Translations under genes and position numbers: made by a program
The notes under the pieces: model-generated
Told to the model about the DNA's origin: nothing
Seen by the model: the letters and a program-made list of their open reading frames with translations, nothing else
The model's database searches: none
Shown: positions 1,217-25,700 of the stretch, piece by piece
Layout of the letters: each line of letters starts with the position of its first letter
Numbering within the stretch: position 1 is the first letter of the stretch
Source: a virus
Virus record (IMG/VR): IMGVR_UViG_3300032087_005456
Location: 1 to 28,777 of that record
Direction: 5' to 3' (one strand)
Length of the DNA: 28,777 nt

Positions 1217-1981
1217 ATGAGAAGAAATAGTTTTAACACAGACAATTTTTTGAATATAGCAAGAGGAGAAGTAGGAGATACTTCTCATATTCATAAATTT
1301 GGTAGAAATCCAAACATAGGAAACGCACCAGAAACAATTTGGATGTATGGCGGTAAATATCAATACCTTGCTGTTGGAGCAGCAAGTACTCTATATGCGT
1401 ATAGTGCAAACCCAGAAGATTCAGCAGCTGGAGACGGTGCGCGAACCATAACGATTCTGGGATTAGATAACAACTTTAATGAAATAGAAGAAACAGTTAC
1501 TGTAGGTGGAGCGGCGACAACTTTAGAGTTTTTAAGAGTTTATCGTGCCTTCGTTGCTACTGCAGGTTCTACCAATACAAACGAAGGGAATGTTTTAATT
1601 TCTACTGCTTCAGGCGGTGGTGGAACAGTTCTTGCAGATATTGGAACTGTTGGAACTGGAACAACATTTGGTTTAGGTCAAACACAGCTTGCTCTTTATA
1701 CAATTCCTGCTGGAAAAACTGGGTATCTTATAACTTGGAATATTGGGGTGGCTCCAGCGAATAATAAAGCAACTGTGCTTTTAAAATCAAGAGAACTTAA
1801 TGGCGACGGGCCATTTAGAACAAAAGATATTGTAGATTTAGTGGGTGGAAATCATCATCAAAATTATTCAATTCCACTCAGGTTTCCAGAAAAAACTGAT
1901 ATTGAAGTAGTAGCATCTGGAGATACAAGTTCGATTATATCATCTTCATTTGATATTATATTGCTTGAGAACCCTGCATAA
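1217..1981 (+). CDS. Probable virion structural protein (marine-phage beta-rich family)
   Basis: The protein has 254 residues from the ATG at 1217; an in-frame TTG at 1199 was rejected because GAGGA at 1205-1209 is well placed for the ATG. It is beta-rich and Gly/Thr-rich, with YGGKYQYLAVGAASTLYAYS, a GARTITILGLD stretch, an EYLRVYRAF-like motif (LEFLRVYRAFVATAG) and LALYTIPAGKTGYLITW. I associate this set of motifs with structural proteins seen repeatedly in marine podo-, sipho- and myoviruses, sometimes found in virions. It may be a capsid decoration or tail-associated protein. Its position, well upstream of the head genes and among small basic proteins, is unusual. The structural role is inferred from family resemblance, not from a catalytic motif. 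Confidence 0.7.
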   Translation: MRRNSFNTDNFLNIARGEVGDTSHIHKFGRNPNIGNAPETIWMYGGKYQYLAVGAASTLYAYSANPEDSAAGDGARTITILGLDNNFNEIEETVTVGGAATTLEFLRVYRAFVATAGSTNTNEGNVLISTASGGGGTVLADIGTVGTGTTFGLGQTQLALYTIPAGKTGYLITWNIGVAPANNKATVLLKSRELNGDGPFRTKDIVDLVGGNHHQNYSIPLRFPEKTDIEVVASGDTSSIISSSFDIILLENPA

Positions 1982-1991
1982 GGAACATATA

Positions 1992-2168
1992 ATGCCATAC
2001 GTAGTAAGAGGATCAACAGTTTACAAAAGAAACGGTAAAAAATTAACAAAAAAAGCAAAAGCAAAGAGTAAAGCTAGTGCAGGTCGTATGTTAAGATTAT
2101 TAAATGCGATAGAGTTTGGAGGCTTCATGCCAAATGGCCGTAAAAAGAAAAAGAAGAACAGGCGTTAA
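1992..2168 (+). CDS. Small Lys/Arg-rich phage protein (MPYVVRGSTVYKR type)
   Basis: This 58-residue protein starts at ATG 1992 with AAGGA at 1980-1984. A short N-terminal motif (MPYVVRGSTVYKRNGKKL) precedes a helix-prone basic region and a GRKKKKKNRR tail. About one third of residues are Lys or Arg and only one is acidic. The V-GxxVYKK-G-K opening resembles small phage proteins of the type MxxxGxCVYKKDTGKKVG, which have no known function. Earlier in-frame starts are unnecessary given the Shine-Dalgarno position. Its last 35 bases overlap the next gene in a different frame, so its poly-Lys tail is encoded by DNA that also encodes the neighbour's basic N-terminus. Confidence 0.7.
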   Translation: MPYVVRGSTVYKRNGKKLTKKAKAKSKASAGRMLRLLNAIEFGGFMPNGRKKKKKNRR

Positions 2169-2430
2169 AAGAAGATCACTTAGCGCAAGTGTACAAGCAA
2201 CACTCAAAAGAAAAGCAAAAAATAGTAGATTTACTTATGGCCAGCTTGCAAGAGTGTATAGACGAGGACAAGGAGCTTTCTTAAGTTCAGGTTCTAGACC
2301 AGGAGTGTCTATGAGTCAGTGGGCTTTTGGAAGAGTAAATTCTTTTATCAGAGGTGGACATTCACAAGATAATGACATCAAAAGAAAGAAGACAACAAGG
2401 AAAAGACGTGGCACGAAAAAGAAAAGGTAG
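2134..2430 (+). CDS. Basic conserved phage protein with SSGSRPG motif
   Basis: A 98-residue protein from ATG 2134, preceded by GGAGG at 2118-2122 (11-base spacing). It has three parts: a basic N-terminus (MAVKRKRRTGVKRRS), a central domain (YGQLARVYRRGQGAFLSSGS then RPGVSMSQWAFGRVNSFIRG) and a basic tail (KRKKTTRKRRGTKKKR). 31 residues are Lys or Arg and two acidic. The central GxGAFxSSGSRPGxxxxxWAxxRVNSFxxGG pattern is a conserved phage domain of unknown function; I recall it as DUF5824 but cannot verify the number. The gene overlaps its neighbours at both ends (35 bases upstream; 23 bases with the GTG start proposed for the next gene). Nucleic-acid binding is plausible from charge. Confidence 0.75.
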   Translation: MAVKRKRRTGVKRRSLSASVQATLKRKAKNSRFTYGQLARVYRRGQGAFLSSGSRPGVSMSQWAFGRVNSFIRGGHSQDNDIKRKKTTRKRRGTKKKR

Positions 2431-2602
2431 TAGAAGACAAGTTGCTTATAGCAAACATGGTGTACCTAGAAAGTATGATATGGGAAGTGCTACACTTGCA
2501 AGAGTTATAAAAAAGATTGCTCAACTTTACAAAGAAGGAAAAAGAGTACCTAAAAAATTAATTGACCAAAGAATTAGACTTGGTAAAAGAAAAAGAAAAT
2601 GA
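2408..2602 (+). CDS. Small basic phage protein, unknown
   Basis: I place the start at GTG 2408 because AAGGA (2397-2401) lies six bases upstream and the product then begins MARKRKGSRRQ like its neighbours. An in-frame ATG at 2372 would add 12 residues. The 64-residue product has a basic N-terminus, a YSKHGVPRKYDMGSATLARV middle, a helix (IKKIAQLYKEGKRVPKKLID) and the tail RLGKRKRK. No known domain is evident to me. It overlaps the previous gene by 23 bases and its TGA overlaps the next ATG (ATGA). It belongs to the run of Lys/Arg-rich mini-proteins; a DNA-binding or virion-associated role is only inferred. Confidence 0.7.
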   Translation: MARKRKGSRRQVAYSKHGVPRKYDMGSATLARVIKKIAQLYKEGKRVPKKLIDQRIRLGKRKRK

Positions 2603-2880
2603 GAAAATTATTTTTATTATTAATCTGTGGTTTTGCACTAGAAGCACACCACAATACTATACACCCAGAAATAGAAATGGCAGCACATAACAAAGCAAAA
2701 CACAAAGTCTTTAGAGCAAATAAAGATGTTTATAGAACAATGGCTCAAGCGCGTAAAAGAGCAAGAGCGTTGGGATTAAGAGGCATACACTCACATGGAA
2801 GAGGTTCCGAGAAGAGATTTATGCCAGGTAGCACTCACCAAGCATATGTGAGAGCAGTAAAAAGGAAGAAAAATGGCTAG
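2599..2880 (+). CDS. Basic phage protein with signal-peptide-like leader
   Basis: The 93-residue frame starts at ATG 2599 overlapping the previous TGA. Residues 1-16 (MRKLFLLLICGFALEA) look like a short secretion signal or membrane leader. From M27 (ATG 2677) the protein is basic, with AQARKRARALGLRGIHSHGR and a FMPGSTHQAYVRA motif. The second part matches a pattern I have seen in phage proteins (A..RA..LG..G.HSHG.G...FMPG.TH..Y). The start is ambiguous: 2599 has coupling (ATGA) but little Shine-Dalgarno, and 2677 also has only a weak site. Two products, a leadered one of 93 and a cytoplasmic one of 67 residues, are possible. Function unknown. Confidence 0.7.
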   Translation: MRKLFLLLICGFALEAHHNTIHPEIEMAAHNKAKHKVFRANKDVYRTMAQARKRARALGLRGIHSHGRGSEKRFMPGSTHQAYVRAVKRKKNG

Positions 2881-3124
2881 AACAGGCGGTTTTCTAAGCG
2901 GACCTACAGGTGTTCATAATACACAAAAAATTCGTAAACATACTCTTCAACGAGGAGTTACACGAGATATGAATGCAGCTGCAGGAGCTTTAGTAAATAC
3001 AAAAAATCCAAACAGTGTTGAAGCATTTAGATATGGTTCAAGACCAAAAGCAATCGGACCAAGATTTGGTAAAACAGCAAATCCACCAAGAGCAAAATTT
3101 CCAGGAAGAAGAAGGAGAAGATAG
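2873..3124 (+). CDS. Small basic Gly/Arg-rich protein, unknown
   Basis: This 83-residue protein starts at ATG 2873 with AAGGAAG at 2862-2868, inside the last codons of the previous gene. It begins MARTGGFLSGPTGVHNTQKI, has few acidic residues, many Gly, Pro, Asn and Arg, and ends PGRRRRR. The composition suggests a poorly structured, nucleic-acid-binding or assembly-associated peptide. No domain recognised. The TAG stop shares its G with the GTG start of the following gene (TAGTG), a stop/start overlap. Confidence 0.65.
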   Translation: MARTGGFLSGPTGVHNTQKIRKHTLQRGVTRDMNAAAGALVNTKNPNSVEAFRYGSRPKAIGPRFGKTANPPRAKFPGRRRRR

Positions 3125-3366
3125 TGAGGGGTTTCATTAAAGACGGTAAACTTTTTGTAATAGAAAAAGATGGACATACTGATGTTCAATCTGCAAGAAG
3201 AAAATGTGAAAACATTATGAGAAAGTGTCAAATGATACTTGATAATTTACCAGAAGGAGAAACTTCACTACCTACCTGGTGGACAGATAAAATAGCAATC
3301 GCTGAGTATGAAATTGCATCAGGAGCAGACTACTTAGCAGGCGGACTATCCGAACAGGAAGAATAA
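3124..3366 (+). CDS. Small conserved phage protein with LPTWWTDKI motif
   Basis: This 80-residue protein starts at GTG 3124; AAGGAG at 3112-3117, six bases upstream, makes the start convincing. Unlike its neighbours it is near neutral to acidic. It has an N-terminal segment (IKDGKLFVIEKDG), a helix with two cysteines (SARRKCENIMRKCQMILDNL) and the C-terminal motif LPTWWTDKIAIAEYEIASGA followed by DYL. A similar LPxWWxxKIxxAxxYIxxxxxYL end recurs in small phage proteins and in C-termini of some phage structural or scaffold-like proteins. Function unknown. The TAA stop and next ATG overlap by one base. Confidence 0.75.
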   Translation: MRGFIKDGKLFVIEKDGHTDVQSARRKCENIMRKCQMILDNLPEGETSLPTWWTDKIAIAEYEIASGADYLAGGLSEQEE

Positions 3367-3707
3367 TGGCACTATCAAAAGCGGAAAGAGCAAGACTACG
3401 AAGAGCAGGTCTTACTCGATTAAACAAACCAAAGATGACTCCAAAGCATCGAACAAAGAAAGCAATCGTTGCTACAAGAGTCGGAGGTAAAGTTAAAATA
3501 ATCCGCTTTGGTGCACAAGGCATGGGACATAATTATAGTCCTGAAGCCAGAAGAAGTTTCAAAGCAAGACACGCAAAAAATATTGCTAGAGGAAAATCTT
3601 CACCAGCATACTGGGCGAATAAATTTTTATGGGCAGGAAAAGGAGGTTCCAAAAAGATGCCTCCTAAGTCACAGAAATTTGTTCGTGGAATTAAAAGGAG
3701 AAGTTAA
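3366..3707 (+). CDS. Basic conserved phage protein (FKARHAKNIARG...AYWANK family)
   Basis: This 113-residue protein starts at ATG 3366 in a TAATG overlap with AGGAAG just upstream. Order of features: MALSKAERARLRRAGLTRLN, a TPKHRTKKAIVA segment, a beta hairpin (GGKVKIIRFGAQGMGHN), then SFKARHAKNIARGKSSPAYW and ANKFLWAG, and a basic tail GIKRRS. The signature LSKxExxRLRRAGLxRxNxPKxTPKHxTKxxxV...IRFGxQG...FKARHxxNIxxGKxSxAYWAN is a widespread phage domain without known function. It is one of the most recognisable members of the basic cluster. A role in packaged DNA or terminase handling is conceivable because it lies two genes upstream of terminase, but this is unproven. Confidence 0.8.
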   Translation: MALSKAERARLRRAGLTRLNKPKMTPKHRTKKAIVATRVGGKVKIIRFGAQGMGHNYSPEARRSFKARHAKNIARGKSSPAYWANKFLWAGKGGSKKMPPKSQKFVRGIKRRS

Positions 3708-6864: not shown

Positions 6865-7134
6865 ATGAACAGAATGACAATCGTACACAAGTTAGGCGAG
6901 TATTTCCAGAAAAAAGGAAAATACATGTCTATCGACGAGTACAATAGAGAAACTGATGTTCCCATGAGGGCTCAGATTATAAAAAGAGTTTTTAACTCTT
7001 GGAGTAGAATGATGACTTATGTCAAAAACTACTATCCTAATATTGGAGTAGTTGTGAAAGCACCCGTTGTGAAAACAGCTGCACCTAAGAAAGTAGTAAA
7101 GTCTACTAAAAAGGTGAAGAAAGATGTCGAATAA
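6865..7134 (+). CDS. Small HTH-like protein with basic tail
   Basis: This 89-residue protein starts at ATG 6865 with GAGGA about ten bases upstream at the end of the portal gene. Residues 8-53 (KLGEYFQKKGKYMSIDEYNR, then PMRAQIIKRVFNSWSRMMTY) resemble the short repeat found with homing endonucleases (G..PT..EY......S..TI.RRFGSW..AL), which folds as a small helix-turn-helix. The rest is a Val/Ala/Lys/Pro tail (KKVVKSTKKVKKDVE) that looks flexible and binds nucleic acid by charge. It sits between portal and prohead protease, where a free-standing DNA-binding protein is unusual. The relation to the homing-associated repeat is by eye only. It overlaps the protease start by 11 bases. Confidence 0.7.
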   Translation: MNRMTIVHKLGEYFQKKGKYMSIDEYNRETDVPMRAQIIKRVFNSWSRMMTYVKNYYPNIGVVVKAPVVKTAAPKKVVKSTKKVKKDVE

Positions 7135-9184
7135 GATTTTTCACTGGACAAACACATTCAAGTCTCTTGGGGAACAAGCAGATGGAAGTGTTGAAATCAA
7201 AGGTTTGGCAAGCACAAACTCTCAAGATAGAGCGGGAGACGTGATTGAAGTTGAAGCATGGACAAAAGGTGGTGTAGATAATTATTTACAAAATCCTATT
7301 GTTCTTTACAACCATAATCATGACAAACCAATCGGTAGAGCAAAAGCTGTAAGAACAGTTGATAATGGATTAGAGTTCACTGCGAAAATATCAAAAGCCG
7401 CAGGTGAAATCACAGAATTAATTAAAGACGGTGTTTTAGGAGCATTTTCTGTAGGTTTTCGAGTAAAAGATGCAGATCATATACCTGACACTGGTGGATT
7501 AAGAATCAAAGATGCTGAACTTTTCGAAGTTTCTGTAGTATCAGTTCCTTGTAATCAGGGAGCAATGTTTTCCTTATCTAAGGGATTTGATAATATGGAA
7601 GAATACGAAGAGTTTAAGAAATCTTTTATTAAGACTAACTCAGCAGATTCAGTTAAAACTGAAGAAGTTGGGCAGTCTAAAGTGGCGCAAGCCGACATTA
7701 AGGAGAATCGCATGAGCGAAGAAATGAAAGCTCCTGAGGGCTTTGACCTTGATGCTTTTGCTAAGGAAGTAGCTGAAAAAGCTGCTACCAAACTAGCAAT
7801 GCAACAAGCTGAATCAAAAGCAGCTGAAGAGAAAGCAGCTAAGGAAGCTGCTGAAAAGGCTGCTCTAGTAGAAGCTGAGCAAAAAGCACAGATCGAAGCA
7901 GAACAGGAAAAGCAAAAAGAAGTTGTTGTATCAGTTATGACTGGTGCAGAAAAACTTATGGGTGACGTTGAAGAAAGATTTAACAAAAAAGGCGAAGAGC
8001 TTGAATCTCTTGTTAAAGAACTTCAAACAGAACTTAAAGAAAAATCAGAAGAAATACAACACATCAGAGAATCTAAGAGAGTTTTCTCAGATAGAGGACA
8101 ATCTGGTGATTGGAGAAAATCTTTTGAGCAAGATATATTAGACGCAAAATTTGCTGGTTTAGCAACTGGTAAAGGTTGGGAAAATACATATTCAAAATCA
8201 ATTCTTGAGAAAGTAAATCAACATTCAGGTGTTGAAGTTTCTTCAGCAGATTTTGAACAAGTAGTTTCCGCTAACGTAGAAAGAGACATTCAGAACGAAT
8301 TAGTACTAGCTCCTTTGTTTAGAGAAATTGCTATGAATTCTGCAAGTCAAATTTTACCAATCTTACCTGATGCTGGATACGCTGAGTTTGTTTCACCTGC
8401 AGGTACAGGTGCTGGTACATCACCATACGGTAACTTAGAAACCAGAGGTGATACAGTAGGTGCACCATTTACAGGTGTTACAATGACAGAAAGATCACTT
8501 TCAACAAACAAGTTGATCTCCAAGTCATTCCTAGGTAACGAAACCGAAGAAGATGCAATTATTCCAATACTTCCTCTATTAAGAGAGTCCATGGTTAGAT
8601 CACATGCAAGAGGTATTGAAAACGCTATTCTTTTAGGAAACCACGCAGACGGCGCATATACATCAGGAATTTTTGATGGATTGCTACAACAAGCACAAGC
8701 TGACTCAGACTTTACTGATGACGTTGGTTCAGGTTCACCTGCAGCCTTCTCAGCTACAGATAAAGTTTTAGCTTCTGACTTGCTCGAAATGAGAAAGAAT
8801 ATGGGTAAATATGGTGTAAATCCAAATGAAGTAGTTTATCTAGTTTCACAAGATGCATACTATAATTTACTAGAAGATGCTGAGTTCCAAGATGCTAACC
8901 TAGTTGGCGATATGGCAACAAAGCTAAGTGGTGAAATCGGACAGGTGTTCGGATCAAGAGTTATTCTTTGTGACGAATTCCCATCAAAAGCAGCTGAAAA
9001 GTTTGCTGCAGTAGCGGTTTACCCAAGAAACTATGTAATCCCAAGATTAAGAGGTGTTACAATCGAGTCTGACTACGACGTAGAGAATCAAAGAAGAGTT
9101 CTTGTGGCTTCACAAAGAATCGGCTTTGCAGACATTATCGAAGGTGCAACTTCAAAATGGGGCTTTAAATACGACGCTGCTTAA
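7124..9184 (+). CDS. Fused prohead protease and major capsid protein (HK97 type)
   Basis: This 686-residue protein joins three parts in one frame. Residues 1-155 are an HK97-type prohead protease: VLYNHNHDKPIGRA with H64/H66, GAFSVGFRV with S109 and AELFEVSVVSVP with E135. Residues about 197-320 form an Ala/Glu/Lys-rich coiled coil like the scaffolding delta domain. Residues about 320-686 are the HK97-fold capsid (LVLAPLFREIAMNSASQILP, TMTERSLSTNKLISKSFLGN near the P-domain, NEVVYLVSQDAYYNLL). The protease would cut the delta domain away during maturation. Usually the two are separate genes, though fusions are known. An internal ribosome site at 7700-7714 can also yield the capsid part alone. 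A strong terminator follows. Confidence 0.92.
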   Translation: MSNKIFHWTNTFKSLGEQADGSVEIKGLASTNSQDRAGDVIEVEAWTKGGVDNYLQNPIVLYNHNHDKPIGRAKAVRTVDNGLEFTAKISKAAGEITELIKDGVLGAFSVGFRVKDADHIPDTGGLRIKDAELFEVSVVSVPCNQGAMFSLSKGFDNMEEYEEFKKSFIKTNSADSVKTEEVGQSKVAQADIKENRMSEEMKAPEGFDLDAFAKEVAEKAATKLAMQQAESKAAEEKAAKEAAEKAALVEAEQKAQIEAEQEKQKEVVVSVMTGAEKLMGDVEERFNKKGEELESLVKELQTELKEKSEEIQHIRESKRVFSDRGQSGDWRKSFEQDILDAKFAGLATGKGWENTYSKSILEKVNQHSGVEVSSADFEQVVSANVERDIQNELVLAPLFREIAMNSASQILPILPDAGYAEFVSPAGTGAGTSPYGNLETRGDTVGAPFTGVTMTERSLSTNKLISKSFLGNETEEDAIIPILPLLRESMVRSHARGIENAILLGNHADGAYTSGIFDGLLQQAQADSDFTDDVGSGSPAAFSATDKVLASDLLEMRKNMGKYGVNPNEVVYLVSQDAYYNLLEDAEFQDANLVGDMATKLSGEIGQVFGSRVILCDEFPSKAAEKFAAVAVYPRNYVIPRLRGVTIESDYDVENQRRVLVASQRIGFADIIEGATSKWGFKYDAA
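7700..7714 (+). promoter_or_regulatory. Internal Shine-Dalgarno and start codon for separate capsid protein
   Basis: AAGGAG at 7700-7705 is followed by six bases and ATG at 7712, in frame with the protease/capsid fusion (codon 197). This is one of the best-spaced ribosome sites in the window and sits exactly at the junction between protease and scaffold-like domains. It would let ribosomes make the capsid precursor in excess over the protease. Confidence 0.75.
7712..9184 (+). CDS. Major capsid protein precursor from internal start
   Basis: Starting at the internal ATG 7712 the product is 490 residues beginning MSEEMKAPEGFDLDAFAKEV. It has an N-terminal Ala/Glu/Lys coiled coil of about 120 residues (delta/scaffold domain) and an HK97-fold shell domain ending ATSKWGFKYDAA. 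Hundreds of capsid copies are needed per virion but few proteases, so an internal start would fix the stoichiometry in the way lambda C and Nu3 share a frame. Maturation cleavage probably falls near residue 320 of the fusion (around KRVFSDRGQSGDW), as in HK97, but the exact site is not readable. The sequence supports the start; whether the full fusion is the minor product needs virion protein data. Confidence 0.75.
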   Translation: MSEEMKAPEGFDLDAFAKEVAEKAATKLAMQQAESKAAEEKAAKEAAEKAALVEAEQKAQIEAEQEKQKEVVVSVMTGAEKLMGDVEERFNKKGEELESLVKELQTELKEKSEEIQHIRESKRVFSDRGQSGDWRKSFEQDILDAKFAGLATGKGWENTYSKSILEKVNQHSGVEVSSADFEQVVSANVERDIQNELVLAPLFREIAMNSASQILPILPDAGYAEFVSPAGTGAGTSPYGNLETRGDTVGAPFTGVTMTERSLSTNKLISKSFLGNETEEDAIIPILPLLRESMVRSHARGIENAILLGNHADGAYTSGIFDGLLQQAQADSDFTDDVGSGSPAAFSATDKVLASDLLEMRKNMGKYGVNPNEVVYLVSQDAYYNLLEDAEFQDANLVGDMATKLSGEIGQVFGSRVILCDEFPSKAAEKFAAVAVYPRNYVIPRLRGVTIESDYDVENQRRVLVASQRIGFADIIEGATSKWGFKYDAA

Positions 9185-9198
9185 TTAGCGTAGAGGCT

Positions 9199-9226
9199 TG
9201 AGGGGAGCCTATCCCCTCACTTTTTT
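9199..9226 (+). terminator. Rho-independent terminator after capsid gene
   Basis: A perfect 8-base-pair stem (TGAGGGGA at 9199-9206, TCCCCTCA at 9212-9219) with loop GCCTA is followed by C and six T (9221-9226). It lies 14 bases after the capsid stop and only six bases before the next ATG. It closes the head unit that starts at the promoter 5249-5277 and probably lets limited read-through into the connector genes. Confidence 0.85.
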
Positions 9227-11850: not shown

Positions 11851-13026
11851 ATGGCAGATACATTTTATTTTAGCCGAGATACGAAAGTCTATCTTATTCA
11901 GAACCAGACAACAAGTGGTACTGTAAGATGGGATATTCCTGTTTTAGATGGATTTAGTTTCTCACAAGCAACAAATACAAGTGAGATTACCTTAAATGAA
12001 ATGCAAGAGCACTCAACAAATAAGAGTAGAAGAAGTAGACAAATGTTTACAGATTCATATGCTCCTGCAGAATGGAGTTTTTCAACATACATGAGACCAT
12101 TTGCATCAGTAAATGGTGCAACAGGTGGTTGGGAAGCAACAGGATCAGATAATCAACATCACTGTGTAGAAGAGCCTCTATGGGCAAACTTTGTTGCTGC
12201 AAATAGTTTAGAACCATCAGTAACAACACAGGAAGCTGCTTGGGCAGATGGTGTAACAGCAAGTACAAGTAATACTATATTTGATTTTACAGGTTCAGAA
12301 AAAGCAGAATTAGGAACTTTTGATCTTTACTTTGAAATGGGTGGAGCAGGAAGTGGAACTAAAACTGTTTATAAATTAGAAGGTGCTGTTGTAAATTCCG
12401 CAAGTATCGATTTTGATATTGATGGAATCGCAACAATTAACTGGTCTGGATTTGCAAAAATTATATCAGAAGTAGAAAGTGGAACAGTTCCATCAGGTAC
12501 TGTTTCAATTACAGAAGGTTCTGCTGCTACAGATACAGGTAACTTTATTAGAAATAGATTAACAACTCTGCAAGCAGAGAATGCAGATTCAGCTAATTTC
12601 TCAGCAAGTTATAGTTTAACTTTAACAGGTGGTAATATTACTTTTGAAAATAATATTACTTTCTTAACACCAGAAACACTTGGAGTTGTTAACCAACCTC
12701 TTGGTCATGTTACTGGTACAAGAAGTGTAAGTGGAAACTTTACTTGTTATTTAAATGCCGAGACAGATTCAAGTGCAGATTTATTTGAAGATATTATCGA
12801 AGCAACAGATGATATTGTAAACGCATTTGACTTGACATTCAATATTGGAGGTGCATCAACACCTGCTGTAAAAATTGAAATGCCAAACTGTCACTTGGAA
12901 GTTCCATCACATTCTATTGATGATATTATCTCAATTGAAACAAACTTCCATGCATTACCAGCAAGTATTGATCCAGACAGCACAGCTGATAACTACGAAG
13001 CAAAAATTACTTATACTGGAGCATAA
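11851..13026 (+). CDS. Major tail (tube) protein
   Basis: This 391-residue protein starts at ATG 11851 after a strong AAGGAG. It begins MADTFYFSRDTKVYLIQNQT and contains a TSEITLNEMQEHS-SRRSRQMF segment, FSTYMRPF, and repeated beta strands (GTFDLYFEMGGAG, ASIDFDIDGIATINWSGFAK, GTRSVSGNFTCYLN), the pattern of tail-tube proteins that stack as hexameric rings. It is longer than minimal tube proteins, leaving room for a surface domain in the Ser/Thr/Asn-rich middle (about residues 80-140). Position between tail terminator and the chaperone frameshift genes is diagnostic. A UUCG hairpin lies just behind the stop. Confidence 0.88.
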   Translation: MADTFYFSRDTKVYLIQNQTTSGTVRWDIPVLDGFSFSQATNTSEITLNEMQEHSTNKSRRSRQMFTDSYAPAEWSFSTYMRPFASVNGATGGWEATGSDNQHHCVEEPLWANFVAANSLEPSVTTQEAAWADGVTASTSNTIFDFTGSEKAELGTFDLYFEMGGAGSGTKTVYKLEGAVVNSASIDFDIDGIATINWSGFAKIISEVESGTVPSGTVSITEGSAATDTGNFIRNRLTTLQAENADSANFSASYSLTLTGGNITFENNITFLTPETLGVVNQPLGHVTGTRSVSGNFTCYLNAETDSSADLFEDIIEATDDIVNAFDLTFNIGGASTPAVKIEMPNCHLEVPSHSIDDIISIETNFHALPASIDPDSTADNYEAKITYTGA

Positions 13027-13036
13027 ATAAATTAAC

Positions 13037-13060
13037 TGGAGGGCTTCGGCCCTCCACTTT
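13037..13060 (+). terminator. UUCG-loop hairpin after major tail protein (weak terminator or RNA stabiliser)
   Basis: A perfect 8-base-pair stem (TGGAGGGC at 13037-13044, GCCCTCCA at 13049-13056) closed by a C(UUCG)G tetraloop, which is unusually stable. Only CTTT follows, so termination would be partial. It sits ten bases after the tail protein stop and just before AGGAG and ATG of the chaperone gene. It may reduce read-through or protect the upstream mRNA from exonucleases. Confidence 0.7.
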
Positions 13061-13072
13061 ATAGGAGAAGAA

Positions 13073-13507
13073 ATGACAGAAGAAATCAAAAAGACGGAAG
13101 TAAGTTTACGTAATTTACTTACTCCAAGTAAAACAGTATCAATTAATTATCCAGAATTTGAAGGATTTGATATTGATTTATGTTATCTCGCAAGAGAAGA
13201 ACTTATTAAATTAAGAAATCGTTGTGTCTCACAGAAATTAAATAGAAAGACACGAGGTTTTGAAGAAGTTCTTGATGATGAAAAGTTTTTAACCGAATAT
13301 ACAAAAGCTGTAATTAAAGGTTGGAAAGGATTAAAAATTAAATATTTACAAAAAATGGTACTTATTGATTCATCAGGAATGGACGAGAATATGGAATTAC
13401 CTTACAATCAAGAAAATGCAGAATTATTAATGCAAAATTCAAACGGATTTGATCAGTGGGTAACAGAAACAACACAAGACCTTGAAAATTTTACTATGCT
13501 CAAGTAG
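13073..13507 (+). CDS. Tail assembly chaperone (gpG-like, zero-frame product)
   Basis: This 144-residue protein occupies the place of lambda G, between the tail tube and tape measure genes. It starts at ATG 13073 after AGGAGA. Features: an N-terminal strand segment (SLRNLLTPSKTVSINYPEFE), then helices (CYLAREELIKLRNRCVSQKL, FLTEYTKAVIKGWKGLKI). It ends ENFTMLK at the TAG at 13505. Chaperones of this kind coat the tape measure during tail assembly and are absent from the finished virion. The last codons contain the slippery sequence A AAT TTT at 13486-13492, so part of the ribosomes continue in the -1 frame to make the longer gpGT form. Confidence 0.88.
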   Translation: MTEEIKKTEVSLRNLLTPSKTVSINYPEFEGFDIDLCYLAREELIKLRNRCVSQKLNRKTRGFEEVLDDEKFLTEYTKAVIKGWKGLKIKYLQKMVLIDSSGMDENMELPYNQENAELLMQNSNGFDQWVTETTQDLENFTMLK

Positions 13508-13911
13508 AGAAAATAATATCTCTACTTGAACGTCAGTTTACACAAGGTTCTATTGATGTAGATAAATATTTAAAGATATGTGAACAATTAGGTGAAGAGC
13601 CTAATCCAGAAAAAATGCCAGTGACTGTAGAGTCTTATCCATTTGAAGTACAACAGGCATTTTTTGTACATGATCTTTTACCAGATAGATGGGACGGAAT
13701 GAGCGGATCATATTTTGGAAAAGACATGGCAGCACTTGGAACCATTTTAGATATTTGGAAAATAGAAGACAAAAAGACAGTTGTTTACTTTTTAAAACAT
13801 ATTGAAGCAAAAAGAGTAGACAAGATAAATAAAGAACTGGAACAAAAAAGAAAAGCTAGAGAAAGAAGTAGCAAAGGTGGGGTAGGAAATATTCCAAAAA
13901 TTAAAAAATAA
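13073..13911 (+). CDS. Tail assembly chaperone gpGT, made by -1 frameshift
   Basis: After slippage on A AAT TTT (13486-13492) translation continues in the -1 frame from TAC at 13492 to the TAA at 13909, giving about 279 residues: 140 from the zero frame then 139 new ones starting YYAQVEKIISLLERQ. The new part has an acidic start, then a DLLPDRWDGMSGSYFGKDMA segment and a long charged helix (KHIEAKRVDKINKELEQKRK). This T-type extension would bind the tape measure. The -1 frame is open exactly from the slippery site: a TGA (13483-13485) closes it just upstream. A gene caller would report the extension as a separate ORF from ATG 13615, but that ATG lacks a Shine-Dalgarno site. Confidence 0.88.
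13486..13529 (+). promoter_or_regulatory. Programmed -1 ribosomal frameshift signal
   Basis: Slippery heptamer A AAT TTT at 13486-13492 (zero-frame codons AAT TTT; -1 codons AAA TTT), a 7-base spacer, then a perfect hairpin. The stem is 13500-13510 with 13519-13529 (TCAAGTAGAGA against TCTCTACTTGA), 11 base pairs, with an 8-base A/T loop. The zero-frame TAG (13505-13507) lies inside the stem. Spacer length and stem position are those of known stimulatory structures. Confidence 0.88.
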
Positions 13912-16900
13912 TGGCAGATTTTAAGGTAGTTGGTAAGTTAACAATTGATGATAAAGGTCAATTGGGAATAATTGCAAACAAATCAAAAGCAGCAGCAAAA
14001 GGACTAGATAATACAGGTAAATCTGCTAGAACTGCTGATCGTAATTTAAAAGGTGCTGCTCAGGCATCTTCAAATACCACTAAAAACTTTTCAAAAATGG
14101 CACAAGGCATCGAAGGAGGCCTCGTACCTGCTTATGCTACTTTAGCAGCTAGTTTATTTGCGATTACTGCTGTCTTTCAAGGTTTAAAAGCAGCAGCAGA
14201 TTTAAAAAATCAACAAAGAGGTTTAGAACTATTTAGTGAATCCACAGGTAAAAATATGCTTGGTGTAGCAGAGTCTATTCGACAAGCTACAAATGGAATT
14301 ATTTCATTTAAAGAAGCAGCTCAAGCAGCCGCAATTACAACAGCTGCAGGATTTAGTGCTGAACAAGTAGCTGATCTTGCAAAAGGAGCAAAACTTGCTT
14401 CTGTTGCTCTTGGTAGAGATATGGGAGATTCTTTTCAAAGACTTATTCGTGGTGTTACAAAAGCTGAACCAGAACTACTCGATGAATTAGGTATTATTCT
14501 TCGACTAGATATTGCTACAAGAAAATTTGCAGATGCAAATGGATTAGTTGCAGAAAAACTTACAATTGCACAAAGACAAGCTGCTGTATTTGAAGAAGTT
14601 TCAAGACAATTAACAAAAAACTTTGGAGATTTTGAAGAACACGCAGATGAATTAACAAATGACTTTGCAAAACTAGAAACTGCATTTATGCAAGTTATTA
14701 AAAATCTATCAGAATTTGTAGGTCCATTAGAAGTTCTTGCTTCCTTCTTAGCACGAAATTCAGGAGCTGCCGCTCTTGTATTTGCTGGATTTGTAACAAG
14801 TATTGCAAAACAAGCATTTCCAGCTTTAACAAACTTAACAGATGCATTTTCTACTTATGGTCAAAATGCACAAGCAAGAGCAGACCAAAGTATTGCAGCT
14901 GTACAAAGAGCTACTGATAGATTCAGATTAAGTGCTTCAGAGTTTACAAGACAAGAATTAAGAAAAAATACTGTTTTTCAATCATACTTAAAAAGAAGAG
15001 GTATATTAGAGCAAAATTTCTTCTTTAAAAGTGAAGCGAATCAAAAACGTTCTGTACGTATGATGATTGTACATTTAGAGAAAAAAGCAGCTGCAGGAAA
15101 AGCAATTAATGAAGCCGAACTTGCAAATTTAAAACTTGTTTTAAAAAGAATGGAAGCAGCTCACCAAACAACATTAGGTAGAATGGTTGCAGGAGCACAA
15201 GCAGCAGGAGCTGCTATGTCTACAGCAATTGTTGCTCCAACAGCACTTGCTCAATCTGGGTTAGCTGCTATGGCAACTTTTGTTGCAACAAGATTAAGTC
15301 CTGTATTTGCGGCATTGGGTGCAGTTATAAATGGAGCATTTTTTATATTTACAACAGTATTTATTGGAAAATTTTTATATGATTTAATCTTTTTAACAGA
15401 CGAGATGAAAGAAAGACAAGATAAATTAAATAGTGAGTTAGAAAGAACAGATCAACTATTACAATTTGCTGGAGGAACAGCAAAAAATATTTTAAAAGCA
15501 CAAATGGACGATGCAAACGATTCTATTTATGAAGTACAACAAAATTTATTAAGAGTATATAGATTAGTTCAAGCAGTAGGTGGTTTAGAAAAAATTAGAG
15601 GTTTAGCAAGTTTAGAAGGCGGTACAAATCAAACATTAAAACAACTAAGTGATGCAGAAAGACAAAATGTAGCACAACAAATAACTTCATTTATTGGAAC
15701 AACTGCAGGAGCAGACGGATTTGAAAAAAATATGCAGACTTTTGTAGATGAATTATCTAAGGAACTAAATCCTACTGGAGCTGCATTCGTTGCCGAAAAG
15801 TTGCAACCTTTACAAAATGCATTAGATCAATTTGATCCAAATAATCCTGATTCTTTAGAAGGTTTATTAAAAACACTTGCTGAGTTATTATCTAAAAAAA
15901 CTACTTTAAAAGTAGATACATTATTAACACTTTTAGATCCTTTTCAAAAAATTCAAGAAGAAGTAATTGAAACAGGAGGTCGTATTGCTGATTTAGATGA
16001 TGCTACTAAAAATTTAGTTGAAACTGCTATGGATTTTAGACGAAAATTTAGACCAACTTCAGAAGAAGCATTTGCTAAAGCAATGGAAGGAGTATTAACT
16101 GGAACAGAAGCAAAAGTAGAGGCAATTGGATCACTCGGATTTACAAAAATAATACCTAAAATGAAGGACGAAGACATTGCGGCTATAATAAGACAACGAT
16201 TTGGATTAGACGATAATTTTGAACTAGATGTGCAGCAAATTTTAGCAGAATTTAGACTAGGAGTAGAAGCTACTAAAGCATTGCCAGGACTTATTTCAGA
16301 CAGAACTGCAATAGATAATGAATTAAAATTCTTAAAATCTAAAAAAGACGCAACAAGTAAATTAGCTGCACAAGAACAACAAATAAAATTATTTCTAAAA
16401 GACGAAGAAATAATTAAGGCAAAAATAAATCAATTAGATTCTGGAAGAAACTTACTTAGCACAGAAGCACAAGCAAAATTAGATATAGAAATAGGAAAAG
16501 AAAATGAAAAACTACGTGTAATTGAACAGCAAAGAAAAGAATATGCAAGATCAATTAGTCTTATTGGAACAATAAATGATACAATGTCTCAAGGACTAGA
16601 AAAAATGTTTTTTGATTTAACAATGGGAGCTACAAACTTTGCCGAGTCTTTTAGAGGATTAATAAAAATGATTCTTGCAGAAATGGCAAAAATAGCAGCT
16701 ATGAGAATGGCTGCTTCTACAATGTCTTTTATAGGATTAGCAAATGGTGGTATTATGCCAATGGCATCAGGCGGGGTTATAAATAGAGCAAATAGCTATG
16801 CTGCTGGAGGTATAGCAACAGAACCCACTTATCTTGTAGGAGAAGGTAAATATAATGAAGCAGTAGTACCACTACCAAATGGAAGAAGTATTCCAGTTGA

Positions 16901-17069
16901 TATGAATGGTGGCAGTGGAACAAATGTAACAATTAATATAGATGGAAGTTCAACAGCAAGTGGTGGATTAGATGCAAATACAGGAAAACAACTTGGACAC
17001 ATGATTCAAGCTGCTACAATGGAAATTATTCAAAGAGAGAAACGACCTGGAGGAGTATTAAGTAGATAA
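13911..17069 (+). CDS. Tape measure protein (lambda gpH-like)
   Basis: This 1,052-residue protein sets tail length and probably aids DNA entry. It is mostly helical with Ala/Lys/Gln-rich stretches. Hydrophobic segments lie near residues 70-95 (AYATLAASLFAITAVFQGL), 284-302 (AALVFAGFVTSIAKQAF) and 450-497 (FAALGAVINGAFFIFTTVFI), as is usual for tape measures that insert in the host membrane. The C-terminus has the typical Gly-rich end (GLANGGIMPMASGGVINRA, then GGIATEPTYLVGEGKYNEAV and VPLPNGRSIPV). It starts in a TAATG overlap with gpGT and ends in one with the gpM-like gene. At about 0.15 nm per residue it would predict a tail near 150 nm, a rule-of-thumb estimate. Confidence 0.93.
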   Translation: MADFKVVGKLTIDDKGQLGIIANKSKAAAKGLDNTGKSARTADRNLKGAAQASSNTTKNFSKMAQGIEGGLVPAYATLAASLFAITAVFQGLKAAADLKNQQRGLELFSESTGKNMLGVAESIRQATNGIISFKEAAQAAAITTAAGFSAEQVADLAKGAKLASVALGRDMGDSFQRLIRGVTKAEPELLDELGIILRLDIATRKFADANGLVAEKLTIAQRQAAVFEEVSRQLTKNFGDFEEHADELTNDFAKLETAFMQVIKNLSEFVGPLEVLASFLARNSGAAALVFAGFVTSIAKQAFPALTNLTDAFSTYGQNAQARADQSIAAVQRATDRFRLSASEFTRQELRKNTVFQSYLKRRGILEQNFFFKSEANQKRSVRMMIVHLEKKAAAGKAINEAELANLKLVLKRMEAAHQTTLGRMVAGAQAAGAAMSTAIVAPTALAQSGLAAMATFVATRLSPVFAALGAVINGAFFIFTTVFIGKFLYDLIFLTDEMKERQDKLNSELERTDQLLQFAGGTAKNILKAQMDDANDSIYEVQQNLLRVYRLVQAVGGLEKIRGLASLEGGTNQTLKQLSDAERQNVAQQITSFIGTTAGADGFEKNMQTFVDELSKELNPTGAAFVAEKLQPLQNALDQFDPNNPDSLEGLLKTLAELLSKKTTLKVDTLLTLLDPFQKIQEEVIETGGRIADLDDATKNLVETAMDFRRKFRPTSEEAFAKAMEGVLTGTEAKVEAIGSLGFTKIIPKMKDEDIAAIIRQRFGLDDNFELDVQQILAEFRLGVEATKALPGLISDRTAIDNELKFLKSKKDATSKLAAQEQQIKLFLKDEEIIKAKINQLDSGRNLLSTEAQAKLDIEIGKENEKLRVIEQQRKEYARSISLIGTINDTMSQGLEKMFFDLTMGATNFAESFRGLIKMILAEMAKIAAMRMAASTMSFIGLANGGIMPMASGGVINRANSYAAGGIATEPTYLVGEGKYNEAVVPLPNGRSIPVDMNGGSGTNVTINIDGSSTASGGLDANTGKQLGHMIQAATMEIIQREKRPGGVLSR

Positions 17070-18991: not shown

Positions 18992-19772
18992 ATTATTAGG
19001 AGAATTAGGACAAAAGTTTGGAAGCGACTGGTCTTCTAGTAGTAAGCGTGCGCGTGATATTTTTAAACTTATAGATTGTCAAACTGAAGGATTTAAAGAA
19101 TACTTAATTGACTGTCATAACAAAAATATTCAATTTACAGTTCAAAATGGAGATGATTTTTTAGATGCAGATGATTTAGTCATGCCTGTATTAAAAGATA
19201 CTGTTATCATAACCCCAGTACCTGCAGGTTCAGGAAAAGGTCTTGGAAAACTTATAGCTGGATTACTTATTCTTGGAGCAATGTTTTTTACTGCTGGGAC
19301 TGCTGCAGCATTTACTACTGGAGGAAGTATGTTTGCAGGTACAGGCATGACAGCTGCTCAAGTTTTAGGTGGAACATCAAGCGCTGTTGCAGGAGGAACA
19401 ATTGGATTAAATACACTTGGCTCTGCAGTAATGATGTTAGGAATAAACTTAGCAGTAACGGGGTTAACAGAAATGTCTACAAAAGATGCAGGTAAGATGG
19501 AAAGTGACCCATCATACTTTTTTAATGGAGCAGAAAATAATATAGAACAAGGATCACCTGTTCCACTACTATATGGGAAAATGAAGATTGGTGGTAATCC
19601 AATTTCACAAGGATATGCACCAGGTAGAATAACTAATAATCGAGGATATTATTATGCAAGTAATAATATTAATTATAATGCCTCGACTTATTATGGAAAT
19701 ACAAACTATACTCAAGGAGTATGGGCAAATGATACAAATTCAGATGTAAATATAACAGAGAGCGAAAAATAA
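18978..19772 (+). CDS. Tail assembly protein, lambda gpI-like
   Basis: The protein has 264 residues from ATG 18978, with AAGGAA seven bases upstream; a longer in-frame start at 18945 has no ribosome site. Residues 1-85 form a beta-grasp (ubiquitin-like) domain ending DTVIITPVPAGSGKG. Then comes a Gly/Ala-rich hydrophobic region (KLIAGLLILGAMFFTAGTAA through MMLGINLAVTGLTEM), which is characteristic of gpI, and a motif PVPLLYGKMKIGGNPISQGY. The C-terminal 45 residues are Asn/Tyr/Thr-rich low complexity. In lambda gpI is needed for tail tip assembly and is not in the finished particle. Adjacency to a JAMM peptidase repeats the known phage pairing. TAATG joins it to gpJ. Confidence 0.88.
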   Translation: MTQVKLLGELGQKFGSDWSSSSKRARDIFKLIDCQTEGFKEYLIDCHNKNIQFTVQNGDDFLDADDLVMPVLKDTVIITPVPAGSGKGLGKLIAGLLILGAMFFTAGTAAAFTTGGSMFAGTGMTAAQVLGGTSSAVAGGTIGLNTLGSAVMMLGINLAVTGLTEMSTKDAGKMESDPSYFFNGAENNIEQGSPVPLLYGKMKIGGNPISQGYAPGRITNNRGYYYASNNINYNASTYYGNTNYTQGVWANDTNSDVNITESEK

Positions 19773-22700
19773 TGGCAAGATATAATAGAGAACCTTTTTC
19801 AGTAAAAAATAAAAGTGATTTATCGAATCCAAATAAAGATCAATATGCAATTACTTATGATGTATTAAGTGAAGGCCCGATAGAAGGTCTAGCAGATGGT
19901 TTATCTTCTATTTTTATTAATGATGTTCCAATCATACAAAAACTTGCTGATGATATAATGAAACCACGTAGATTTAGCGTGGCTACTACTGCAAGTACAG
20001 CAACAATTACAAATGCACAATTTGGAGTTATTGATGCTCTTAGTTATCAAAATAAAGAAGGTCTAGATATAGGAACTCGTTATGTTGCAATAGACAAAGC
20101 AGGAGCAAAAGGAACAGGAATCGCTTCCGCTACTGCAACAACACAAACTATAACAACTTCATCAAACTTCTTTACTTCTTCCATGGCAAATGGACTTCAT
20201 GGAACTGCTCCTGTATATTTGCGAGTTGCAGGTGCAGGACAAGATGGATCAGACTTTGTTACTAAAATCTCTACAATAGTTTCTGCTACTGAAGCAACAG
20301 TAGTGCACCCTGTTCCAACAACAGTCTCAAATGTAGATATTTTCTTTGATCACTTTTCAGAAATTGCAAGTATTAGTGGTAATACAGCAACTCTTACTGA
20401 CGCGCCTGGAGTCACTCTTTCTAGCACTTCTGCACAAGTTTCAAGTCCAGTTACAAATGTAAATTTATCAAATCTATGGAACTTTCAAAATGTAGCACTT
20501 GGTTTTAGAACAGGACATCAACTACAATCACCAATTATATTAAATACAAGTTTTGGACAGGCTTCCACACTTGCTGCTCCAAATATGGAATTACGACAGA
20601 ATGATTTAAGAGCTACAATTGGTACTACAGGAAATTTATCAAGTACTACATATAATGATGACGAATTAGATGAACCTAGTCAAGATGCAGGTACAGGACT
20701 TGATACAGTTCTTACAGATTCTTTTTTAAGTGTAAGTAATCCAAGTGAAGTTGATGAAATTCATGTAACTTTTACGTTACCTTCTTGTCATGCATTAAAA
20801 TCTTCGAGTGGAGCAAAAGGTCCTTCTTTTGTTGAATTACAAATATGGTTTGAATATAGTACTGATGGCGGTACAAATTATGAATCTGTATTAATGTTTG
20901 GACCAACTAATAATGAGATACTAAATAGAACAGGTCCAAAAGGTGGAAGAAATGTAAACTATGTAATTGATGGAGTAGCTCAGATTCCAAATGATGGTTA
21001 CATTAAACCAAGAGAAGCACAATATACAAGTTTTATAGAAGAGTTTGTTATAAATACTGAGCCTTTTCAACCTTACGATAATTTCAGACTTAGAATACGA
21101 AGAATAAATGATCTTAACTTTAAAGACGGAAGTTTTCAACATACTAATCCATGTACAGTATCTACTGTAGAATGTATTGTAAAAGACAAACTTTCTTATC
21201 CATGGACAGCATACGGTGCATTACAATTCAATGCTCGTGACTTTGACAATAATTTACCAGTAAGAAGTTATTTATTGAAAGGACGAAAAGTAAAAGTTCC
21301 TACAAACTATTTTACTCGTGATGAAACTGGAGGAGCCGCTACCTACAATCGAAATGTATCTACTGGTGCAGACGCAGGAAGCTATCAGAGTTGGGACGGT
21401 AACTTTAGAGGAGATAAAAGTTTAGCTTCAAACTCAGTAAACTATCAAGAAGTCTATACAGATAATCCAGTATGGATATTTTATGATTTACTTACAAATG
21501 AAAGATATGGACTAGGACAATTTATAGATGAAGATCAAATTGATAAATATGAGTTATTTCGACTAGCAAGATATTGTGATGAAGAAGTCTCAGATGGAGA
21601 AGGCGGAACTGAACCAAGATTTACATGTAATGTTTACTTAACAAAAACAACAGAAGCAACCTCTATGCTAAAGCAATTTGCAAGTATTTTTAGAGGAATG
21701 GCACTTTGGATAGATGGACAGATAACAGCAATTTCAGATCAACCAAAACAACCTGTTTATACATTTACAAAAGCAAACGTAAAAGACGGAGCTTTTAGTT
21801 ATGAAGGAACAGGAGAAAGATTAAAAACAAACCAAATAAAAGTAACATGGAATGATCCAACTGATAATTATAGACAAGCTATTGAGTATGTAGAAGATTC
21901 TGAATCTATTGCAACTCAGAATAGAATTATTCGAGAAGACGTACTTGCTTTTGGTACTACATCAAGAGGACAAGCACATAGACTCGGAAAATGGAAACTA
22001 CTGAGTGCTCAAAATGAAAAAGAGACTGTTACTTTTATAACAGGACTAAATGCTGCTGGATTAAGACCAGGAGATATTATTACTGTACAAGATGCAGATA
22101 AAGATAGAGCAAGTTATTCAGGTCGAGTGTCAAATACAGGAACACGAAATACAACTACAATTCCACTTGATCGATCAATTACTTTACCTTCAGATTCATT
22201 TACAACTGGGTTTCCACCAGAACTTTTACTAATATATCCAGAGGGCGGAGCATACCTAAATCAAGATAGCGCAACTATAAGTAGTACAGATTATTCAAGA
22301 GGAGATTTAATTCCAAGTGTAACAAGTTCTACCGCAGCAGCAAATCTTGTTGATGATTCAAGTAATAAAGTCGAAGTCTTTTGGTCAGAGAATGTAAGAG
22401 TAGAAAGTCAAGTCTTAAATAATAGCACAGGAACAGGAAGTGTTTCTTCACTTGTTGTAAGCTCTGCATTTACATCAACACCAAATGCAGAGGTAATGTG
22501 GGCATTAAAACTTTACAATGCTGATGGAACAGAAGCAACAGGATCAGCAAAAGACTATAAAATAATTTCAATAAAAGAAACACCAGATCAAGAATTTGAA
22601 GTAATCGGAGCCGCTTTCTATAGAAATAAATTTGATATAATAGAAAGAGGTTTTATTATTCCACCACAACCAACAGCAACTACTCCTGATCCAGATGAAG

Positions 22701-25700
22701 AAGTACCTGCACCAACAAATTTAAATGCAAATATTAAAGGTGTAGAGGAAGATGCAAGTTTTGGTTCGGCATCACATGATGTAATTATTACATGGGATTA
22801 TCCTTTAAATAGTAATGGAAATCGTTATGCTTTTGCAAGTGGATTTGAGGTTACTCATAATTTAAAAGGAAAAGAAATAACAGAAAAAGTAGGAGTACAA
22901 GATCAAAGTTTAAGAGTACCAAGAGTAGAAGCAGGAACATATAAATTAAAAATAAGAACAATTTCAAATATAAATACATATTCTTTCTATACAGAAAGAG
23001 ATTTTACTTTTGCAATACAACATTATGCTCCTCCTGGTAAATCAGTTATTAACAAAGTAAAATTTGGTGGAATTATAGGAGCTTTACCACAAATTGATTC
23101 AAGTACTGGAGTATTTAGAGTTGGAGATAGTGATGTAACTTCATTTACTTTTCAAGGCGCAGATGGAACTACATATTCAAATGTTTCTTCTAGCAGTACC
23201 CAAACAACAGTAACAAATACTGGTGGAGATGCCGCAGGAGAAAGTTATATTGTGTTTAGACAAAATGCTGCTGGTACTGGTATTATAACTAATAATGTAA
23301 GACTTTTCAATGATACAGATGCAACTCCTTCTTTTGAGTTCTGGGGTCTTGATAGTTATAGTGATGGAGTATTCGCTATGTCAGGCACAGCTACTATAGA
23401 AGCAAATTCTAATAAAATTGTAGGGTCAGGAACTTCATTTACTGCAGTAGAGCCTGGGGAGTTTGTAAAAATTGAAAACGGAACAGCTACAACAGCAACT
23501 ACAAGTGGTACAGTTTCAGATTCCACTTCCATTACTTTATCAGCAAGTAATAGTAACATAGAAGTAGGACAAACTGTAACAGGAACAAATTTAAAAGGTG
23601 TTTTAATTAGTGGAAGTACCTACTCTGATCCAGGAGAAATTTATGTTACTGCAATTAGTGGAACTTCTTTAACAGTAAATGCAAAAGTATCTATTGCAAG
23701 TGGAGAAACTTTAAACTTCACTCCATTTGTTTTATATAGAACTACAAATAATATAGAATCAGATACAGTAATGTTTGTAGATGAAATTATACCAAGAAAA
23801 TTTGAAGGTACAACACTTGAACGACAAAGTGTTGATTTAGACTCTCAAGATACAATTATTGCTAGAGTTTCAAATAATACAAAATCAGGAAACTTTACTA
23901 TAGAAGAAACTTACGCAGACTTTCCAGTTGCTGAAAATGCAATTACATTTACTCAAATTTCAAATAGTGTTATTGTAACAGAAAGTGAAGGAATTGCTTC
24001 AAATGACAATAATACAACACTTCCAACTTCAGCCGCAGTAAAAGATTATGTAGACGGACAAGTTACTGCATCAGATGATGATTTAAACTTTGCAGGAGAT
24101 AGCGGCTCAGGTACAATTGATCTTGATACAGAAACTCTTACAATTTCAGGAGATACAGGAATTACAACTACAGCTTCAGGAAATAGTGTAAGCATTGATT
24201 TAGACGATACAGCAGTTACACCAGGAAGTTATACAAATACAAACATAACAGTCGATCAACAAGGAAGAATTACAGCAGCTTCAACTGGAACTGGTGGTGG
24301 AAGTGCTACAACAATTAATAATAATGCTGATAATCGTGTTATCACTGGTAGTAATACCGCAGATACTTTAGAGGCAGAAAGTAGTCTTACTTATAATGGA
24401 ACTACACTAAGCCTATCATCTACTGCTCCAGTAATTAACTTTACAGATACAGACACAGGAGCAGATTCAGAAATTTCTGCTTCATCTTCAAACGGTAGTT
24501 TATTATTTTCAGCAGACAAAAACAATGAAACAGCAAACTCAGTAATTGATTTTAAAATTGATGGAACAACAAAATATTATATTGGAGCAAATGGAGGACT
24601 TTATCACGGTTCTTCTACACGAATTATTGATGGAAGCAGAAATTTAGAAAATATAGGCACAATATCAAGTGGAGCAATTACTTCTTTAGCAAATACGTTT
24701 ATTCTTGGAGATACTGCTACTAGCATAAGAACTCGAATAAGAAATGTAAATCAAAGTGGTTTTACAGAAACTGCAATTGATAATTATAGTTCGGGAGCTT
24801 ATCAACATCGATTAAGTATACAAACTGGTGGACACCTTAATATAGTAACTGGTGGACTAAGATTTGGAGGCACAGAAGTTATTTCAAGTGCTAAAGCTAT
24901 ATCAAATGTAACAACAATTACAAACGGACAATTTACAATTCCAAATACTGCAGGTACATCAGGTCAAGTATTAAAATGGCCTTCAAGTGGTACTGTGCTT
25001 GAGTGGGGAACAGTAACCAGTGGTACTACAACAACAATCAACAATAATGCTGATAATCGTGTTATAACTGGTAGCAATACTGCAGATACATTAAATGCTG
25101 AATCTACCATGACTTGGGACGGCGGAACTCTTGATTTTGGTAGTACAGGTGCAACTATATCAGGTGTTGGTATTTTAACTGCTGGGTATCAAAAAACAAG
25201 TGGTGATATTATTATTATTAATGGTACTGGCATACTCGATGTAAGTAGAAATTTAAGTAATATAGCTAATGCTACTTTTTCTGGTGCTGTTACTGCAGGT
25301 AATGCTTTATACTTTACAGATGGGGGAGATAGAACAATAAGAGGTCCTGCAAATAATGATTTATTTATTAATGCAAGACCGAATGGAACTAATGAAGGTT
25401 TAGGACTACAAATAAATGGTTCTACAAAATTATTTATAAACTTATCTGGAACAATTGATTTTAACTCAAGTCCTGTAGTGGGTGCATCAACAATTACAAA
25501 CGGACAATTCACAATTCCAAACACTGCAGGCTCAGCAGGTCAAGTATTAAAATGGCCTTCAAGTGGTACTGTGCTTGAGTGGGCAAACGATAATAGCGGA
25601 TCAGCTGCTGCAAACGATGCAACAATTACACTATCAGCAGGAACAAATTTAAGTGGTGGCGGAGACTTTACAACAGATCAATCTTCAAATGAGACTATTA

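Follow-up and report, generated by a model that had tools for sequence, protein, structure and literature searches.

A putative −1 frameshift signal with a covarying hairpin that holds the G stop codon in a marine phage tail-assembly gene pair

A tail-assembly gene pair from a marine phage raises the question of whether a heptamer and a hairpin at the end of its upstream gene form a programmed −1 frameshift signal, and of what it means that the stop codon of that gene lies within the hairpin. The pair is located in a 28,777-base IMG/VR virus record, the whole of which was analysed and is called the window here; the G/GT genes, their two neighbours and the signal elements are on its + strand. 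Gene G (13073..13507) is a 0-frame tail assembly chaperone ORF of 144 aa (phrog_313, E 2e-10). The T domain (13492..13911) lies in the −1 frame, matches another tail assembly chaperone family (phrog_3914, E 5e-19) and would be joined to G by a shift, giving a GT fusion of 279 aa. The major tail (tube) protein gene (11851..13026; phrog_3575, E 2e-53, and Phage_tube_2) is located upstream of G, and the ATG of the tape measure protein gene (13911..17069; phrog_3779, E 6e-39) overlaps the T stop codon TAA (13909-13911). As in known G/GT pairs, the G and T ORFs overlap and are flanked by the major tail protein gene on one side and the tape measure gene on the other. G carries a slippery site close to its 3′ end, T is open in the shifted frame, and relatives keep this combination of slippery site and open shifted frame. 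The GT fusion is homologous over its whole length to the GT tail chaperones of T5-like phages, and homology in the −1 frame starts at the slip site and continues onward. The relatives compared were IMG/VR contigs, and no GT relative was confirmed in bacterial genomes.

The 3′ end of the 0-frame ORF at 13073-13507 reads ...GAA AAT TTT ACT ATG CTC AAG TAG. The slippery heptamer A_AAT_TTT (13486-13492) follows the X_XXY_YYZ pattern in the 0 frame of this ORF and is followed by a 7-nt spacer, ACTATGC (13493-13499), and then by a hairpin made up of a 5′ arm TCAAGTAGAGA (13500-13510), an 8-nt loop (13511-13518) and a 3′ arm TCTCTACTTGA (13519-13529). The arms are fully complementary and form a stem of 11 perfect base pairs, and the 0-frame stop codon of G, TAG (13505-13507), is paired within the 5′ arm. 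The last −1 frame stop codon 5′ of the slip site is TGA (13483-13485), after which the −1 frame is open from the heptamer to the TAA at 13909-13911. An earlier note on this DNA had described the heptamer, the 7-base spacer and the perfect hairpin, and every coordinate held to the base; its claims that the −1 frame opens at the slip site and that the TAG sits in the stem were borne out as well.

The hairpin was predicted to fold at −18.2 kcal/mol, compared with −6.3 ± 2.0 kcal/mol in dinucleotide shuffles (z −5.8), and this stable structure begins 7 nt 3′ of the heptamer, within the 5-8 nt expected of stimulated −1 programmed frameshift signals. When all 103 X_XXY_YYZ heptamers on the + strand of the window were considered in any frame, with folds placed 5-8 nt past each, the fold that follows the heptamer at 13486 was by far the most stable (−14.3, with the runner-up at −10.7). 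An Rfam search of the window returned no match. No upstream Shine-Dalgarno-like stimulator was seen when the sequence at the slip site was inspected by eye.

Relatives were collected by profile scans, which yielded 80 loci of the GT family of the window, and 56 distinct sites were compared after duplicates and two divergent sequences were dropped. AAATTTT was found exactly 19 nt 5′ of the 0-frame stop codon in 55 of these 56 sites, the exception (L013) carrying GAATTTT. The 5′ arm is nearly invariant across the clade of the window, with a core CAAGTA(G/A) that is invariant or covarying, while the 3′ arm pairs with this fixed, stop-bearing arm in one of two registers. Class A comprises 39 sites including the window (3′ arm CTACTTG, loop of up to 14 nt), and class B comprises 16 sites (for example, GAGCAAGTA-N7-TACTTGCTC). 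A tree built from the proteins minus the junction requires at least two switches of register. The full class B stem starts 3-6 nt after the heptamer, below the usual 5-8 nt, and this spacer is short unless the ribosome melts the basal pairs. In the nearest cousins of the window (L011 and L012) the hairpin has only 8 bp and, taken singly, is not significant against a synonymous null (p 0.12 and 0.17).

Selection on the RNA was examined 3′ of the stop codon, where only the −1 frame codes and synonymous codons can therefore be redrawn without changing GT. Against this protein-preserving null, the real sequences folded better in 58 of 63 loci (p ≤ 0.05). With pooled codon usage, 93% of the 56 sites passed (median z −3.6), compared with 7-18% in six other stretches of the T domain used as controls (medians near 0, one at −1.0). 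In the class A 3′ arm, the second of the Leu codons (13525-13527) is CTT at every site with Leu at this position (37/37, out of 39 class A sites), and CTT makes up 16% of the Leu codons elsewhere in T. Paired bases were found in 96.9% of cells in class A, compared with 22-40% when the partner was slid by 1-3 columns, and in 96.3% of cells in class B, compared with 26-45% when slid. Cells in which both bases had changed numbered 14 in class A (5.7 in shuffles) and 10 in class B (2.9 in shuffles). The third base of the stop codon is paired with position +17 in 39/39 class A sites (TAG-C in 28, TAG-U in 6, TAA-U in 5 and A-C in none). According to the protein tree, the stop codon changed three times independently within class A, with a matching change of the partner base in two of these cases, and because independent changes are so few, the covariation of the stop base is consistent with pairing and not significant alone.

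These comparisons bear on a rival explanation in which Gln-Val and Leu-Leu codons happen to be complementary and the stem is a by-product of chance or of protein coding. The motif does have conserved amino acids, and four of the eight pairs in the core of the stem show no variation. However, the protein-keeping synonymous null was beaten in 93% of loci at the junction and not elsewhere in the gene, and the stem carries compensatory changes, so that next to no weight is left for coincidence. Judged from its relatives, the hairpin is not a chance feature, and the synonymous-site and pairing results indicate that it is a selected RNA structure, independent of the protein. The earlier note had proposed covariation in homologous phages and conservation of heptamer and stem as checks on its reading, and both came out in its favour: the pairs covary in class A and class B, the heptamer is kept in 55 of 56 sites and the hairpin beats the null in 93%.

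The favoured reading is that of a programmed −1 frameshift signal that would fix the ratio of two tail chaperones, G and GT (probability about 0.9). It is the reading that the earlier note had put forward, and it is strongly supported by the gene families, the conserved heptamer, the selection at synonymous sites and the covariation. The majority of ribosomes would pass A_AAT_TTT without a shift, unfold the hairpin and terminate at the TAG in its 5′ arm, producing G. A minority would pause at the hairpin, 7 nt further on, with tRNA-Asn and tRNA-Phe on AAT TTT; the two tRNAs would then slip in tandem and re-pair on AAA TTT, and translation would continue as ...ENF/YYAQVEK... to produce GT. This hairpin-aided tandem slippage of tRNA-Asn and tRNA-Phe on A_AAT_TTT is the most likely mode. 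A_AAU_UUU falls within the H_HH.U_UU.Y heptamers, a class that works efficiently in E. coli (PMC4066793); tRNAs and ribosomal behaviour may differ in the host of this phage. Each 0-frame ribosome would unfold the hairpin and exit at once, so that the hairpin could refold before the next ribosome arrives. The sequence elements, their conservation, the selection on the hairpin and the gene family are established by the sequence comparisons, and from these we infer that slippage occurs, how efficient it would be, that the hairpin stimulates it and what refolding would lead to. By analogy with lambda, G would coat the tape measure protein and T would recruit the tube protein.

The shift could instead be produced by the heptamer alone, as in lambda, with the hairpin serving mRNA stability, transcription pausing or processing. 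According to a review, stimulators seem to play no part in the G-T shift of certain tailed phages (PMC5009743), and many members of a sister family (below) are without a hairpin. Against this stand the constant distance between hairpin and heptamer, the recurrence in an independent sister clade of hairpins that begin 5-8 nt past the heptamer, and the lack of a U tract 3′ of the hairpin or of any terminator call here on the + strand, and we therefore consider a heptamer acting without its hairpin improbable. A terminator or promoter role for the hairpin was rejected, given that there is no U tract and no terminator call on that strand. T might also be made without any frameshift, by re-initiation past the stop codon or by transcriptional slippage, and the stop codon does adjoin T. 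However, no ATG, GTG or TTG was found in the −1 frame within ~110 nt 3′ of the stop codon in most sequences, the window included, so that T is probably not started separately near the junction and re-initiation was rejected as its source. Homology in the −1 frame moreover begins at the slip site itself. Runs of 4 bases of A or T are short for polymerase slippage, and the site offers just 4 A and 4 T. Neither route to T is given more than a token chance beside programmed frameshifting.

The meaning of the stop codon within the stem was approached through a sister family found with L006 as the query and represented by 55 distinct sites. T is in the −1 frame in this family as well, and the heptamer is almost always G_GGA_AAC (GGGAAAC), one codon upstream. 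No significant hairpin was found in most of the 55 sites. In 14 of them a significant hairpin of 7-10 bp lies 5-8 nt after the heptamer, with the stop codon in its loop (for example, GACCAACT...TAA...AGTTGGTC). This layout was noted in family members L141, L144, L146, L150, L154, L160 and L163-L174. About a dozen sister members have the stop codon placed as in the clade of the window relative to the Phe codon, and ~11 of these are hairpin-less. With three arrangements among homologues, the position of the stop codon is independent of the hairpin. Hairpin-less and loop-stop sisters make the same gene pair, and the hairpin-less homologues just mentioned keep the stop position, so that on the simplest reading the window's clade may have built its hairpin around an existing stop codon. 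The position of that codon was probably already set by codon constraints (in the −1 frame, a Gln-Val/Ile pair), with the hairpin probably arising later, on and around it.

The earlier note had taken the stop codon within the stem to be the key point. The feature is real and conserved in the clade, but sister phages carry the stop codon in a loop or have no hairpin, and by this comparison of homologues it is a trait of the window's clade and not a requirement. It had also been proposed that a terminating ribosome must first melt the stem. The geometry is right, because with 13505 in the A site the whole 5′ arm is covered and the stem has been melted, but ribosomes of both frames melt it. The feedback between termination and frameshifting that the note drew from this layout, and by which the G:GT ratio might be set, is tentative.

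The stop codon within the stem could nevertheless be a selected device that sets G:GT by translation load. In one version, a terminating ribosome keeps the hairpin open, and frameshifting falls when ribosomes are crowded; in the other, prompt exit lets the hairpin refold, and frameshifting stays high. Consistent with such a device, the stop codon lies in the 5′ arm in essentially the whole clade, this arm stays in place while the 3′ arm moves, and the third base of the stop codon and its pairing partner covary. In SARS-CoV-2 a stop codon in stem 1 raises frameshifting and its removal halves it, in a manner that depends on ribosome load (PMC8168617). However, any paired base, a stop base included, is expected to covary, and a stem that starts 7 nt past the heptamer would overlap a stop codon at 12 nt by geometry alone. 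Sister clades manage with the stop codon in a loop or with no hairpin, and hairpin-less homologues retain the same stop position. In L028 the stop codon has moved 9 nt downstream and is mostly in the loop, and its bases are only 30% paired; the low pairing makes this site ambiguous as a case of a hairpin tracking a moved stop codon, and it was not accepted as one. We regard the device as unlikely. The fuller proposal, that stop codon and hairpin are one selected unit, that termination first opens the hairpin and then frees it, and that G:GT senses the spacing of ribosomes on the late mRNA, is tentative and rated a little lower still.

Among known systems, lambda G/GT has the same two genes, lying between the major tail protein and tape measure genes, and its shift has the same direction and purpose. 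The lambda slippery heptamer is G_GGA_AAG, whereas in the window A_AAT_TTT is followed by a covarying hairpin with the stop codon inside it. Xu, Hendrix and Duda reportedly described the lambda −1 frameshift and many phage homologues in 2004. Lambda-type G/GT frameshifts in many phages have also been reviewed (PMC5009743). The closest parallel in stop placement is SARS-CoV-2 ORF1a/1b, in which the 0-frame stop codon is located five codons past the slip site within the first stem of the stimulator (PMC8168617); likewise, the stop codon of the window is the fifth codon after the heptamer and lies in the stem. The nearby stop codon raises frameshifting in that virus, which has been explained by prompt exit and refolding (PMC8168617). 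The SARS-CoV-2 signal differs in its pseudoknot, its U_UUA_AAC heptamer, the eukaryotic ribosome and its polyprotein product, and it has no homology to the window. E. coli dnaX, IS3 and IS911 share a slippery motif, a spacer of ~5-8 nt and a downstream hairpin or pseudoknot, and in an IS3 construct a 0-frame UGA is located within the pseudoknot region (PMC4066793, PMC5009743). Their genes and heptamers differ from those of the window, and an upstream Shine-Dalgarno-like sequence serves dnaX and IS911 as a further stimulator (PMC4066793, PMC5009743).

G/GT shifting, the heptamer type and the stop codon within a stem are each already known singly. A literature search that covered few subscription papers returned no description of a covarying hairpin that includes the stop codon in a phage G/GT gene, and a search with the same coverage gave no clear report of a stop codon within the stem in bacterial signals. 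In the lineage of the window the covarying hairpin is clearly under selection, and its sister lineages have no hairpin or carry the stop codon in the loop; with such natural variants it becomes testable in a laboratory bacterium how a hairpin and the placement of a stop codon set a protein ratio.

T5-like phages (Demerecviridae) were compared at the same junction. T is in the +1 frame relative to G in all 13 records examined (L089-L093 and L175-L182), and the junction reads TTT followed by CGT or CGA (TTT_CGN), with its Phe aligned with the slip-site Phe of the window; L175 (JSF12) is less clear, with TTT 39 nt 5′ of the stop codon. The T5-like and window fusions are homologous end to end (E down to 6e-49) and have this Phe codon in common, whereas T is in the −1 frame in the window, and the direction of shift would therefore differ between homologous genes. 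A −2 shift instead of +1 would reach the same frame. The T5-like junction belongs to the P-site UUU_C type known from influenza PA-X (PMC3498833), and UUU_Ynn has been noted as +1 prone (PMC5009743). No clear report of a T5 +1 shift was found in a literature search that covered few subscription papers. Shifting by +1 at the same codon in T5-like phages would add a case of homologous genes that differ in shift direction. The solutions found at this Phe codon (no stimulator, a stop codon in the loop and T5-like +1) would form a natural series for studying the effect of stop placement.

Several other features were observed in the window. A GC-rich hairpin, TGGAGGGC-TTCG-GCCCTCCA (13037-13056), lies between the major tail protein stop codon and the G start, in a region (13022-13075) predicted to fold at −16.9 kcal/mol, and it may lower or insulate G expression compared with that of the tail protein. 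A single ORF of 686 aa (7124-9184) encodes a prohead protease (Peptidase_S78) fused with the major capsid protein, and just 3′ of this fusion gene a T run accompanies a terminator-like hairpin, TGAGGGGA...TCCCCTCA (9199-9226). Further downstream, a 2574-aa tail protein (19772-27496) ends in a Peptidase_S74 (endosialidase chaperone) domain, and a tail-region ORF (27493-28590) has a C-terminal Hint domain (Vint, E 6e-13). Near the start of the record, a perfect 10-bp hairpin, GAGAGTTCAG...CTGAACTCTC (509-535, z −4.9), was found, and small overlapping, strongly basic ORFs (Lys/Arg-rich) form a run at 1950-3707, one of which matches DUF5824.
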